Source: a virus
Reading direction: 5' to 3' (one strand)
Virus record (IMG/VR): IMGVR_UViG_3300031578_000200
Location: 1 to 33,309 of that record
DNA length: 33,309 nucleotides
Shown: positions 20,781 to 25,393 of the stretch, in pieces
Numbering within the stretch: position 1 is the first letter of the stretch
Layout of the letters: the number at the start of each line of letters is the position of its first letter
Program-made: the position numbers and the translations under genes
The notes under the pieces: model-generated
What the model saw: only the letters and a program-made list of their open reading frames with translations
Told to the model about the DNA's origin: nothing
Database searches by the model: none

Positions 20781-20810
20781 TCAAAAACGGTATTATTTAA
20801 TTATGTAAAC

Positions 20811-21082
20811 AGCCCAAAAAATTGCCCAATAACTGGGATGCGTGTAATCGTTGATCTACGGGGCGTTCAGATCAATAACCCAAAATAACCCAAAAAAAGT
20901 TTAACCTTTATATATTCATTTTCAAAAAAGTACCTTTTTTATATTCTTCTTTTAAGTTAAAAAGAGAAAGAAAGAGGGCTAAAGGGTTCAAAGCCGCAGA
21001 AAACAGCCAAAAAGATAACCCAAAACTAGCCCAAAAACGCCTAAAATAACCCAAAAAGGGGTAAAGATCGCCCAGTAAAATC
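20811..21082 (+). repeat. CCCAAAA iteron-like array in the divergent region
   Basis: The 490-base gap between the arms carries repeated TAACCCAAAA-type units. TAACCCAAAA occurs at 20876-20885, 20886-20895, 21016-21025 and 21047-21056. AGCCCAAAA is at 20811, TAGCCCAAAA at 21027-21036, and degenerate forms are at 20822 (TTGCCCAATA), 21005 (AGCCAAAAAG), 21037 (ACGCCTAAAA) and 21070 (GCCCAGTAAAA). Spacing is mainly 10-11 bases, one helical turn, so bound proteins would sit on one DNA face. All copies have the same orientation. Candidate replication origin or operator array. The rest is A+T-rich, a usual trait of origins. Confidence 0.65.
20924..20940. repeat. 17-base inverted repeat between the arms
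   Basis: AAAAAAG (20924-20930), TAC, CTTTTTT (20934-20940): perfect 7-base arms around a 3-base centre. Too small a loop for a hairpin, so more likely a protein site, or an easily melted origin element. It lies between the two halves of the CCCAAAA array. Confidence 0.4.
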
Positions 21083-21227: not shown

Positions 21228-21665
21228 ATGAACACAATCCTAATAGCACTAGCGGCGATTTCGTCAAATTTAGGCGTAGACCTAAGCCCAAAACAAACAG
21301 AGTGTTTATCTACGGTGATATATCACGAAGCACGTGGCGAACCGATTATGGGGCAGGCTGCAGTGGCGCATGTTGTGTTGAACCGCGTTAAATCTAGGCG
21401 ATACCCTGATACGATTTGTGAGGTTGTTTACCAGCCGTGGCAGTTTTCGCATATCGAACGAGCACGCCCTGATTATAATTCTGGTGCATGGAAACAGGCC
21501 GTTAAGATTGCAACACACACACAAGTGGGATTGGTTGAAGACGAAACAAGCGGCGCAACGATGTATTATTCGCACGCTGTGATGAATGAGCCGCCGAAAT
21601 GGGATTTTAGTAAACTGAGTTACGTGGGAAAATTACAAGGCCACAGTTTTTATAGTGAGATTTGA
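21228..21665 (+). CDS. SleB-type cell wall hydrolase (endolysin candidate)
   Basis: The 145-residue protein is a Hydrolase_2/SleB-family peptidoglycan hydrolase. IYHEARGEPIMGQAAVAHVV (31-50), with E34 as the probable catalytic Glu, then LNRVKSRRYPDTICEVVYQP and WQFS are typical. Toward the end, TSGATMYYSHAVMNEPPKWD and GHSFYS follow. The N-terminus (MNTILIALAAISSNLGV) is mildly hydrophobic and may act as a weak export or SAR signal. It is the first gene of the rightward operon, not beside the tail genes. Either the endolysin or an early wall-modifying enzyme. Confidence 0.85.
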   Translation: MNTILIALAAISSNLGVDLSPKQTECLSTVIYHEARGEPIMGQAAVAHVVLNRVKSRRYPDTICEVVYQPWQFSHIERARPDYNSGAWKQAVKIATHTQVGLVEDETSGATMYYSHAVMNEPPKWDFSKLSYVGKLQGHSFYSEI

Positions 21666-21677
21666 AAGGAAATAATT

Positions 21678-22328
21678 ATGGGATGCGATATACATTTTCA
21701 TGTTGAAATACAAAGTGAAAACGGTGTGTGGTTAAGCGCCGATAAATGGGAGTATAAAGACGATTATATAAACGTTGTTTACAGTGACCAGTTTTATAAT
21801 GGGCGAAATTACGGATTGTTTTCAATTCTTGCTGGTGTTCGTAATGGCACAGGTTTTGCTGGGTGCGATACTGGTGATGGATTTGAGCCTATAGATAGCC
21901 CTCGCGGCTTGCCTGATAATTTGAGTTTTGAAGTAAAAGTGCGTGCAGATCAATGGGGACATGACGGGCACAGCCACTCGCATTTGACTTTAAAGGAAAT
22001 TAAAGATTTTGACTTTAAGTCGAAAAAAACAAAGCGCCGTGGATTTGTTTATCTTGACACTTATTTACAGATGGAGAAACAAAAGAATAAAACCCCAGAT
22101 TTTTATTTTGGTGATACAAACATGACAAAAGTAAAGTGCAATGACATCAAGGGGTTTAGTAAGGACGAAATAGTTAAGCGTTACGGCAACAATGTATGCG
22201 TTCAACTTGAATGGGACATTAGTTATTACGATGTGGCAAAATGTTTTATTGATAATACTTTGCCAAAAATGTCCGAATTGAATAGCGACCCAAATAAAGT
22301 TCGCGCTGTATTTTGGTTTGATAATTAA
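21678..22328 (+). CDS. MGCDIH-family phage protein, unknown function
   Basis: The 216-residue protein starts MGCDIHFHVEIQSENGVWLS, the opening of a widespread phage/bacterial family of unknown function. Other family traits: GRNYGLFSILAGVRNGTGFA, IDSPRGLPDNLSFEVK and DQWGHDGHSHSHLTLKEI with clustered His. The conserved Cys3, His6, His8 and the later HDGHSHSH suggest a metal site, which is inference. A good AAGGAA site precedes the ATG. It follows the hydrolase gene at 12 bases, so both are in one early transcript. Confidence 0.7.
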   Translation: MGCDIHFHVEIQSENGVWLSADKWEYKDDYINVVYSDQFYNGRNYGLFSILAGVRNGTGFAGCDTGDGFEPIDSPRGLPDNLSFEVKVRADQWGHDGHSHSHLTLKEIKDFDFKSKKTKRRGFVYLDTYLQMEKQKNKTPDFYFGDTNMTKVKCNDIKGFSKDEIVKRYGNNVCVQLEWDISYYDVAKCFIDNTLPKMSELNSDPNKVRAVFWFDN

Positions 22329-22519
22329 TGAAACACATAGGAAAGATAATAAACGAAATGGATATTTTGAAACGAAAACCAGTATACATCCGCGCAGATC
22401 ACCACGCGAAATTAAAATCCGTATCCCAAGAAATAGATATGACAATTCAGGATTTTTTGGAAATAATTTTAGATACGGCGCTATATGGGGGAGAAGATGA
22501 AAACAGTGAAAGTGAGTAA
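22328..22519 (+). CDS. Small RHH-like DNA-binding protein (first)
   Basis: A 63-residue protein. The C-terminal half (KPVYIRADHHAKLKSVSQEI then DMTIQDFLEIILDTALYGG) has the strand-helix-helix form of ribbon-helix-helix regulators. The start ATG overlaps the MGCDIH-gene stop (TAATG); a later in-frame ATG at 22358 is possible. Its second half resembles the next gene's start (KVSKYIHDQIAVISDKSGIK), suggesting related proteins. It may regulate early promoters. No other domain seen. Confidence 0.55.
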   Translation: MKHIGKIINEMDILKRKPVYIRADHHAKLKSVSQEIDMTIQDFLEIILDTALYGGEDENSESE

Positions 22520-22889
22520 ATATATACACGATCAGATTGCCGTGATTTCGGACAAGTCGGGTATAAAAATTCAGGACGTGGTTGATATTCTACTGCAACG
22601 TGGAATAGCTGAATTTGAAAGCGATGTTGACGGACTTAAGGAAACCATGCGGAGTATTTACGAAGATGATGAAATTGTGTCAATGTCAATGGAAGCAACG
22701 AACGCGGGGATTGATGAATATAATAAATTTTTAAAACGCCTAACCCGTGACGAAAGAAAGCGGATATCAGGTTTTATTAAAGAGCATAAACAACGTGCAG
22801 AAAATATTACCTACAACGAAAAGAAACGTGTTGCTCTGGAATTAATCGGGGCAGTTTATAATTATGAAATACATGGAAGGGAAGTATGA
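22497..22889 (+). CDS. RHH-like small regulator with C-terminal extension
   Basis: A 130-residue protein. The N-terminal part (VKVSKYIHDQIAVISDKSGI then KIQDVVDILLQRGIAEFES) looks like a ribbon-helix-helix domain; the rest is helical and charged (DEYNKFLKRLTRDERKRISG, KEHKQRAENITYNEKKRVAL). The start at 22497 is preferred: GGGGGAGA lies four or five bases before it, while the upstream ATG at 22485 has no site. It overlaps the first small RHH-like gene by 23 bases and shares the following gene's start by ATGA. A likely DNA-binding partner of the ParB-like protein or an early regulator. Confidence 0.6.
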   Translation: MKTVKVSKYIHDQIAVISDKSGIKIQDVVDILLQRGIAEFESDVDGLKETMRSIYEDDEIVSMSMEATNAGIDEYNKFLKRLTRDERKRISGFIKEHKQRAENITYNEKKRVALELIGAVYNYEIHGREV

Positions 22890-24016
22890 TGGAAATTGAA
22901 AATATTATAGAAGATTTGAAAAAACTTAACACAGATGAGCTTGTATCGGAGCTAAACAACATACGTGAAAAATTGCACGAAATATCACCGTTTAAAACAG
23001 AGCCAGTTGATTTTGTGAGATGGGTAAAAACAGATAACGTAACTGCAAATGATTATAACCCCAACAGCGTTGCGCCTCCTGAAATGGAATTACTTAGGTT
23101 ATCCATTAAAAATGATGGGTACACACAGCCTGTTGTCGCGTGGACTAATTCAGACAAGGGAATGATTGAAGTTGTCGATGGGTTTCACAGAACACGTGTC
23201 TGTAAAGAATTTGATGATGTGAAATCTAGAGTTCATGGATATTTACCGATTGTAGGTATTAATGAAACATGCGCGTCACGTAATGATCGAATGGCATCAA
23301 CAATTCGCCACAACCGCGCGCGCGGTAAACACAATGTAACCGCTATGTCTGATATTGTTACAGAATTAAAAAACAGAAATTGGAAAAACAAGCGAATAGC
23401 CAAAGAGCTTGGGATGGATGAAGATGAAGTCTTAAGATTGTGCCAAATAACAGGGTTGGAAACCATGTTTGAAAACAGAGGTTTTTCTAATGCTTGGGAA
23501 GCAAATGACGCAGTTCATGAGGACACATTTGAGTTATTAACAGATGATTTTGAAGATGATGAGCATAAAGGCAGGACGGTGAATACAAATGATGAGAACC
23601 GTATATTCCATACATACGAAAAATGGGAATGCGTTGGTTATGGTTTTTTTGGCACAAAGAAAGACGGTATGTCAAAAGAACAGTGTGAATTTGCTTTTGC
23701 TGAATTTTTATCAGATGAAAAAAAGTTTAGTGAGGCGCTTGAAAAAATAACAGCGGAATGGAAATATTCATGCGAACATTATCTAACAAATACAGCAATG
23801 AATAGGATAGCATGGCTTGGTCAGGCCGCTGTCGCGTATAGCTTAGGAATACCGTCTAAATTTTGTTCAGGTTGGCAGATCATGAGTGACGATGATCAAG
23901 ATAGAGCGAATGATGTGGCTTTAAAATACCTTAACAAATGGCTAAAAGATCATGATAGGGAAGAGCTAACGTTAGATGAGGCTGTTTCAGTTGGCAGACA
24001 AGTAGAAATTTATTAA
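22886..24016 (+). CDS. ParB-like (IbrB-type) protein
   Basis: The 376-residue protein has an N-terminal ParB/Sulfiredoxin-like domain: ANDYNPNSVAPPEMELLRLS, IKNDGYTQPVVAW and VVDGFHRTRVCKEF (about 96-108), whose DGxHR box marks the nucleotide-binding ParB fold. ASTIRHNRARGKHNVTAMSD follows, then a helix-turn-helix-like NKRIAKELGMDEDEVLRLCQ (about 172-190). The C-terminal half is of unknown form. Directly followed by a PAPS-reductase-like gene; this pair is annotated elsewhere as IbrB/IbrA, described as co-activators of prophage genes. Its real activity is unknown. Confidence 0.8.
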   Translation: MMEIENIIEDLKKLNTDELVSELNNIREKLHEISPFKTEPVDFVRWVKTDNVTANDYNPNSVAPPEMELLRLSIKNDGYTQPVVAWTNSDKGMIEVVDGFHRTRVCKEFDDVKSRVHGYLPIVGINETCASRNDRMASTIRHNRARGKHNVTAMSDIVTELKNRNWKNKRIAKELGMDEDEVLRLCQITGLETMFENRGFSNAWEANDAVHEDTFELLTDDFEDDEHKGRTVNTNDENRIFHTYEKWECVGYGFFGTKKDGMSKEQCEFAFAEFLSDEKKFSEALEKITAEWKYSCEHYLTNTAMNRIAWLGQAAVAYSLGIPSKFCSGWQIMSDDDQDRANDVALKYLNKWLKDHDREELTLDEAVSVGRQVEIY

Positions 24017-24027
24017 GGGGAATTAAA

Positions 24028-25227
24028 ATGTCTAAAAAAGTTTATATAGATAAAAGTGTTTTAGAGGCATCAAGAGAAAGGGTTTCAAAAACCTTTGACG
24101 ACTTCGAACGTATATATATTTCATTTTCAGGAGGTAAAGATAGCACGGTCATGACGCACTTAGTCATGGAGGAGGCCATAAGAAGAAATCGAACCGTTGG
24201 GCTATTAATCATTGATCTTGAGGCTCAATATTCAGACACAATAAAGCATATAGATGAAATGGTTGAGAAGTACAAAGACAACATTGACTTGCACTGGTTT
24301 TGTGGCGAATTGCTACTTAGAAATGCGGTTAGTAATTATCAACCAAAATGGGTTTGCTGGGATGAAGATAAAAAGCAAGATTGGGTTCGTAATAAACCGA
24401 AACAGGCGGCAGATTTATCACAGTATGATTTTTATGTTCCTAAAATGGAATTTGAAGAATTAATGGTTATTTTCGGTGAGTGGTATTCTCAAGGAAACCC
24501 ATGTGCAGCGTTTATTGGTATTAGATCAGATGAAAGCCTACATCGTTATCGAGCAATTACATCAAGAAAAGATGGCTTAATGCACAAAAACAGAAAATGG
24601 ACAACAAAAGTCAGTAAGGATTTGTTTAACATATATCCTATATACGATTGGAGAACAGAAGATATTTGGACGTATCACACAGTTTTCAAGGATAAATGCC
24701 ATAACGAAATATACGATAAAATGACCATGGCTGGTGTAAAAATTAGCGAGCAAAGGCTGTGCCAACCATATGGGGACGACCAAAAGAAAGGTCTTTGGTT
24801 GTATCATATTCTTGAGCCTGACACGTGGTATAAGCTTGTTGCTCGTGTCAACGGGGTTAATTCTGGTGCGCTATACACAAGAGAACGCGGGAATATTAGT
24901 GGCAATGTTAGGATTACTAAGCCAGATGGTCATACATGGGAAAGTTTTTGTAATCTATTGCTTTCTACCATGCCAGAAGCGACAAGAGATAATTATGTTT
25001 CAAGGTTTAAAAAGTTTATTCATTGCTGGCGCGATAGGGGATACGAAAAAATACCCCAAGAAGCACCAATTGAGCTTGAAAATAAATGCTGGGTTCCAAG
25101 TTGGCGTAGAATGTGCAGATGCATATTGAGAAATGATTTTTACTGCAAGGGATTAGGGCAAACACAACCAAAATCAGAAGCATGGGGGAAGTTCAAAAGC
25201 ATAAAACAGGCTCGAAATGGAAATTGA
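24028..25227 (+). CDS. PAPS reductase-family protein (IbrA-type, DUF3440)
   Basis: The 399-residue protein has the PP-loop SGGKDST (34-40), which in this family binds adenylated substrates. Also YISFSGGKDSTVMTHLVMEE, LLIIDLEAQYSDTIKHIDEM, NPCAAFIGIRSDESLHRYRA and YPIYDWRTEDIWTYH, typical of DUF3440/IbrA. The C-terminus has four clustered Cys (354, 363, 365 and 373; CWVPSWRRMCRCILRNDFYC) that may bind a metal or Fe-S cluster (inference). The upstream gene is ParB-like, so the pair acts together. Possible role in nucleic-acid modification or regulation; no evidence here for sulfate assimilation. Good AAGGGG site before the ATG. Confidence 0.85.
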   Translation: MSKKVYIDKSVLEASRERVSKTFDDFERIYISFSGGKDSTVMTHLVMEEAIRRNRTVGLLIIDLEAQYSDTIKHIDEMVEKYKDNIDLHWFCGELLLRNAVSNYQPKWVCWDEDKKQDWVRNKPKQAADLSQYDFYVPKMEFEELMVIFGEWYSQGNPCAAFIGIRSDESLHRYRAITSRKDGLMHKNRKWTTKVSKDLFNIYPIYDWRTEDIWTYHTVFKDKCHNEIYDKMTMAGVKISEQRLCQPYGDDQKKGLWLYHILEPDTWYKLVARVNGVNSGALYTRERGNISGNVRITKPDGHTWESFCNLLLSTMPEATRDNYVSRFKKFIHCWRDRGYEKIPQEAPIELENKCWVPSWRRMCRCILRNDFYCKGLGQTQPKSEAWGKFKSIKQARNGN

Positions 25228-25393
25228 AAACACATACAAATGCAAGGACACATTAGAAATGTTTAATACTAATAACACATACTTAGAAATAAAATTCACA
25301 GATATTGAGATTGAGAAAATCAAGCAAGCTGCGAATGAGCGAAATTTATCGCTAGACGAATTTATTGTAAAATCATCACTGGGAGAAATTTAA
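25217..25393 (+). CDS. Small RHH-like protein (third)
   Basis: A 58-residue protein, MEIENTYKCKDTLEMFNTNN then TYLEIKFTDIEIEKIKQAAN and ERNLSLDEFIVKSSLGEI. The strand-helix-helix arrangement (YLEIKFTDIEIEKI, LSLDEFIVKS) fits the Arc/CopG fold. ATG overlaps the end of the PAPS-like gene, and its TAATG stop overlaps the next ATG, so it is translationally coupled on both sides. No function visible. It could be a regulator or a partner of the PAPS/ParB pair. Confidence 0.65.
   Translation: MEIENTYKCKDTLEMFNTNNTYLEIKFTDIEIEKIKQAANERNLSLDEFIVKSSLGEI

Follow-up and report, generated by a model that had tools for sequence, protein, structure and literature searches.

The window analysed here (an entire IMG/VR virus record of 33,309 bases) encodes an IbrB/IbrA pair of which the ParB-like member, IbrB, was found to carry an additional C-terminal domain, termed C. 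Judged by gene linkage, C appears to be a dedicated third component of the IbrAB system, with an unrelated small protein, K, as its mutually exclusive alternative. We tentatively propose, at somewhat less than an even chance, that IbrAB(C) is a ParB-guided, ATP-consuming complex of three components which marks its target, most likely DNA, by adenylylation. The pair itself is already known, as an uncharacterised one, and is widespread in phages, where it is usually mislabelled as a sulfur-metabolism enzyme and a DNA-partition protein. No description of the C domain, of its fusion to IbrB or of the alternation of C and K was found in the open-access papers searched. With a dedicated component and its exclusive alternative, what was a vague "co-activator" pair becomes a complex of A and B with C or K that is defined and open to testing. 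The features of the locus are as follows.

22328-22519, RHH-like neighbour (DUF3408, 5e-5; weak, under the cut-off)
22485-22889, RHH-like neighbour (Omega repressor, 0.04; weak, under the cut-off)
22886-24016, plus strand, IbrB ORF, 376 aa
22886-23509, plus strand, IbrB core (residues 1-208), a ParB/Srx-type nucleotide-binding domain followed by a HTH (phrog_2159, AF2, Foldseek)
23510-23593, plus strand, IbrB linker (residues 209-236), low confidence (model segments 194-215 and 225-230 with pLDDT < 50)
23594-24013, plus strand, C domain (IbrB residues 237-376), all-alpha, with core SCEHYLTN..MNRIAWLGQA, fused here (linkage, AF2)
24014-24027, plus strand, IbrB stop, then the ribosome-binding-like sequence AAGGGGA ahead of IbrA (direct sequence reading)
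24028-25227, plus strand, IbrA ORF, 399 aa, a PP-loop (PAPS reductase/CysD/FAD synthase-like) enzyme with DUF3440 (PF01507, PF11922, phrog_2302, AF2, Foldseek)
24127-24147, plus strand, ATP pyrophosphate loop SGGKDST, IbrA residues 34-40 (conservation)
25132-25155, plus strand, ND..C..L motif of the DUF3440 tail, N369, D370, C373 and L376 of IbrA (conservation)
25217-25393, RHH-like neighbour (NikA, 3e-5; weak, under the cut-off)

The G+C content of the window is 41%. The minus strand carries the virion genes (terminase, portal, major head, tail sheath and baseplate hub). The plus strand holds early genes for a VapE-like primase-helicase, a DEAD-type helicase, an endonuclease, a RecE-like exonuclease and RecT, and the IbrB/IbrA pair stands at the beginning of this block. 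IbrB starts (22886) four bases within the preceding gene and the gene at 25217 starts within the end of IbrA, so that the early block looks translationally coupled. Promoter scans gave matches no commoner than chance, and no close DNA relatives of the locus were present among phage records or E. coli genomes.

Three further observations concern the region upstream of the pair. Iteron-like CCCAAAA repeats, possibly an operator or origin, were seen at 20807-21065, where the early and late blocks diverge. TARCCCAAAA occurs five times, against an expectation of 0.35 for the whole window, and the repeats are not present in the 88%-identical relative L003. The ORF at 21228-21665, which has a homologue in L003 and looks by eye like a SleB-type cell-wall hydrolase, opens the early block, away from the lysis genes. 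Just upstream of the RHH genes, a 216 aa protein (21678-22328) matches phrog_10141, a family of unknown function, over its full length (4e-50).

The earlier note on this DNA had pointed out three RHH-like genes flanking the pair. Their domain matches exist, weakly and under the cut-offs, but no homologues of the three genes were detectable across 147 related loci. For this reason they were rejected as parts of the system, and a link with DndE, which has two RHH domains, was dropped likewise. They appear to be incidental to the phage in the window.

IbrA scores over the cut-off of both PF01507 (PAPS_reduct, 62.7 bits) and PF11922 (DUF3440, 131.8 bits) and matches phrog_2302 (6e-83). Its AF2 model (pLDDT 86.9) gave Foldseek matches to CysH, CysD and FADS, and by profile its nearest solved relatives are FAD synthase (1.3e-6), CysD (4.7e-6) and CysH (5e-6). 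IbrA homologues are filed in phrog_2302 as 'phosphoadenosine phosphosulfate reductase', category moron/AMG, and viral PAPS reductase (cysH) is discussed as a sulfur-assimilation auxiliary metabolic gene. That IbrA is a true PAPS reductase with such a role, as this label and CysH as its top Foldseek match would have it, is nevertheless hardly credible. The SGGKDS of IbrA is intact where the loop of CysH is degenerate, the catalytic C-G-[LIV]-H tail occurs in 0 of 414 IbrA homologues, and the scores stay far below TIGR02057 (29.1 vs 254.2) and NF002537 (32 vs 154 bits). The constant pairing with IbrB and with C or K argues in the same direction. The sequence evidence says that the IbrA family is not CysH.

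The ATP loop was found exactly at the residues given in the earlier note. S34, G36, K37, D38 and S39 are present in 413 of 414 homologues (the remaining row is a gap) and are also kept in actinophage homologues; they form a conserved active-site set together with D63, E65, R166, E169, R173, D207 and D212. Because this loop and the acidic and arginine residues are kept while the cysteines vary, the catalytic core of IbrA would be an ATP-pyrophosphatase active site. FAD synthase and CysD both transfer AMP from ATP, which is why adenylylation is proposed for IbrA.

The DUF3440 tail is strongly conserved at D370 (414/414), N369 (412/414) and C373 (408/414), but not in distant actinophage IbrA, and the match of the Athena and LiSara proteins spans only the part before it. 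The tail was also seen alone, stand-alone or fused, in A-B-C loci (L406:8632-8892, L407:8606-8845 and L359:4074-5336), with the conserved Cys replaced, and it appears to be a mobile module. In cellular genomes of two phyla DUF3440 scored over the cut-off sporadically (1/198 and 3/199, tallies that include the seed genome).

The C-terminal cysteines of IbrA (354, 363, 365 and 373) were likewise confirmed in the window protein, and the hint of an Fe-S or Cys cluster that had been attached to them found no support. The complete set is present in 7 of 414 homologues, or 1 of 77 after dereplication. Among 81 close homologues, a Cys at 363 usually goes with none at 365 and vice versa: 30 have C,V at these positions, 30 have A,C, and 14 have Cys at both, of which six carry the full four. 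Twelve of the 81 have Gln at 354. No Cys is universal; one or more actinophage homologues carry another residue at C92, and the same holds for C110, C245 and C373. The IbrAs of Athena (gp4) and LiSara (gp6) keep SGGKDS, D63, E65, R166, E169, R173, D207, D212 and R243 and lack C110, C245 and C373, LiSara also C92. A four-Cys Fe–S site was rejected by this conservation pattern.

Phosphorothioation of the DndC type, or another sulfur transfer with an Fe-S cluster on these cysteines, would agree with a PP-loop enzyme beside a ParB-superfamily partner, an arrangement common to DndB/DndC, and with the retention of C373 in 408 homologues. We regard it as very improbable, since the score of IbrA against the DndC model TIGR03183 is 22.3 bits (cut-off 290.4), no Dnd partner was found among the ten flanking proteins scanned, and actinophage homologues stay paired without these cysteines. 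With the four-Cys set unconserved and C373 absent in the most distant homologues, an Fe–S or sulfur-transfer reading is without basis; in the IbrA family, a supporting role for Cys chemistry is possible in most proteins, though not in all.

IbrB matched the ParB-like family phrog_2159 (E 9.7e-70) and the ParB part of the phage DNA methyltransferase family phrog_498 (1.2e-7). Its AF2 model (pLDDT 84) consists of a ParB N-domain and a HTH, for which Foldseek retrieved Noc, ParB and KorB at 1e-6 to 1e-5 (Noc 1.5e-6, KorB 9e-6), then the SbnI/SerK kinases (SbnI 1e-2) and sulfiredoxin. IbrB falls under the cut-offs of the ParB models ParB_N (15.6 vs 26.3) and TIGR00180 (21.7 vs 58.45 bits). Two motifs stand out, DGFHR at residues 98-102, to which the GERR motif of ParB aligns, and TIRHNRARGKH at 139-149. 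Among 418 IbrBs, D98, G99, H101 and R102 are each found in 417 and F100 in 410, while N143, A145 and G147 are invariant (418/418). DGFHR is, we assume, similar to the DGQHR in the name of DndB and to the Srx/SerK motifs. In databases, the phage IbrB genes L235:3069-3999 and L086:5302-6201 are labelled 'ectoine synthase/ParB multidomain' or 'L-ectoine synthase', which is probably misleading.

The C domain (23594-24013), a feature absent from the earlier note, was modelled mostly at pLDDT 92-98, and sequence and profile searches of Pfam, PHROG and PDB gave no convincing match. About 130 of the fetched loci have it fused to IbrB. In about 14 it is a gene of its own between B and A, as in Microcystis phage Mwe-JY13; a C gene following B was seen in Mycobacterium phages Gaia/Nebkiss (gp106) and Pseudoalteromonas phage XCL1123, and the orders B-C-A, A-B-C and C-A-B all occur. 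Loci fetched by C alone contained IbrA in 151 of 151 cases and IbrB in 150 (71/71 IbrAB loci with the C query; IbrA 80/80 and IbrB 79/80 with a divergent C query), and the sole locus without IbrB starts 61 bases from a contig end. All five phage records with C carry the IbrAB pair, and no C domain was found in plasmids.

In other IbrAB loci, IbrA is preceded by K, which belongs to phrog_26647 (unknown function). K alone fetched loci with IbrA in 12 of 12 cases and IbrB in 11, the twelfth being cut off. Among 429 loci, 267 have C without K or the SNF2 helicase H, 47 have K (one also with H), 35 have H without C or K, three have C with H and none has C with K. A tree of 77 IbrAs called for 6 changes of C (at least 5 of them forced), 7 of H and 3 of K, counts that are approximate in that the C locus L086 was wrongly scored as lacking C. 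The loci behind the tree and the counts were picked by similarity to a few queries, to which exclusivity and linkage are less sensitive than the frequencies.

K (f48) and a GNAT-like protein (f57) were considered as diverged copies of C and rejected at a hhalign probability below 1%. H adjoins A in many loci lacking C, but it was not accepted as a dedicated partner because phage replication modules commonly have a helicase beside a primase. The f57 protein, of 122-141 aa and GNAT-like by eye, is encoded next to the pair or between its two genes in L119, L134, L145, L154 and L157, often with the SNF2 helicase.

The statement of the earlier note that IbrB/IbrA-type pairs recur in phages with unsettled chemistry was right. 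IbrB was present in 224 of 231 IbrA loci, nearly always on the same strand and adjacent or one gene apart, and several of the IbrA loci without IbrB are near contig ends. In the phage collection, 216 records contain IbrA and 218 IbrB, with nearly identical host breakdowns. In actinophages a distant IbrB–IbrA pair persists beside terminase genes, to which LiSara adds a gene annotated as methyltransferase; ParB, PAPS-like and IbrB-like genes stand directly beside the terminase genes in Athena (L563:1069-2717) and LiSara (L564:3325-6137). Compared with L003, pN was far below pS for IbrA (0.09 and 0.86), IbrB (0.17 and 0.84) and the C domain (0.18 and 0.86), and all three are therefore under purifying selection.

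The evidence points to modification, of DNA or of a nucleotide, or else to a regulatory role. In the proposed complex, IbrB would bind DNA through its HTH and work as a nucleotide-dependent switch or clamp of the ParB/Srx type, placing IbrA on DNA. IbrA, as an ATP pyrophosphatase, would adenylylate (AMP-activate) the target presented by IbrB, most likely DNA, leaving the site chemically marked, and the mark could protect phage DNA or alter transcription. C may be an accessory subunit, either an adaptor or a partner for a second half-reaction, that completes or targets the reaction and is replaceable by K; as C is all-alpha and without a known relative, its role is a guess. The pairing of IbrA with IbrB, the linkage of C or K to the pair, the intact ATP loop, profile relatives that include the adenylyl-transferring FAD synthase and CysD, the likeness of the ParB-HTH part to the DNA-binding Noc and KorB, and the phrog_498 match support this scheme. 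The enterobacterial chromosomal copies (YbdN/YbdM), which lack C and K, count against it, and so does the fact that we know of no modified nucleoside for any IbrAB phage. ParB-like proteins are paired with DNA-modifying enzymes in DpdB with DpdA (PMC12839542) and DndB with DndC (PMC10853773), which supports the scheme by analogy, as does the place of the distant actinophage pair beside terminase genes and, in LiSara, a gene annotated as methyltransferase.

The main rival is regulation: IbrB would bind an operator and IbrA would sense or hydrolyse a nucleotide as a switch, the DNA being left chemically unchanged. As cited in PMC8065619 and PMC6008420, Sandt 2002 reported that IbrA and IbrB activate the transcription of prophage eib genes in E. 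coli ECOR-9; in these accounts it is the only activity reported for the pair, and it counts against modification. The closeness of the IbrB ParB-HTH fold to the KorB repressor and the place of the pair among the early genes of the window also fit a regulator. A fully conserved PP-loop active site, however, implies catalysis beyond sensing alone, and third partners swap, so that we hold regulation to be possible and somewhat doubtful. Alternatively, the product could be a small nucleotide or cofactor (a modified dNTP, an adenylylated metabolite or an anti-defence nucleotide) instead of DNA. FAD synthase and CysD indeed have small-molecule substrates, and SbnI and SerK, relatives by the ParB fold, are small-molecule kinases; the HTH of IbrB and its best structural matches, DNA-binding proteins of the ParB family, make this unlikely.

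Should the marking complex act on DNA as proposed, one more chemistry would be added to the known phage modifications. In a stronger form of the proposal, which seems fairly unlikely, IbrAB(C/K) would stand as a class of its own among phage DNA-modification systems, in which a ParB-guided PP-loop enzyme with interchangeable C and K sets a new, non-sulfur, ATP-derived or ATP-activated mark. Laboratory hosts exist for M. smegmatis phages Gaia/Nebkiss, for S. thermophilus phages and for E. coli K-12 ybdNM.

The closest known systems are IbrA/IbrB of E. coli ECOR-9 and YbdN/YbdM of E. coli K-12, which are the same pair with the motifs SGGKDS, DGFHR, RHNRARG and the ND..C tail; YbdN is 39% identical to the window IbrA. 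The K-12 pair is chromosomal, in the order A-B and without C or K, whereas the window has IbrB, with C fused to it, ahead of IbrA. Dnd likewise has a ParB-superfamily protein (DndB) beside a PP-loop ATPase (DndC), but the window IbrA fails the DndC model and has no conserved Cys dyad or cluster, and DndD, DndE and DndA were absent from the ten flanking proteins scanned. With Dpd the ParB-like ATPase DpdB serves the DNA-modifying DpdA, which is a TGT and not a PP-loop protein (PMC12839542). IbrA has its fold and the DW..DIW motif in common with CysH, CysD and FAD synthase, from which it differs in its extra DUF3440 tail and its partner proteins and, in the case of CysH, in its intact ATP loop. 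IbrB, finally, has the ParB N-domain and HTH fold of the CTPases ParB, Noc and KorB, with DGFHR in place of GERR, scores below the Pfam and TIGR cut-offs and no known ParA or parS.
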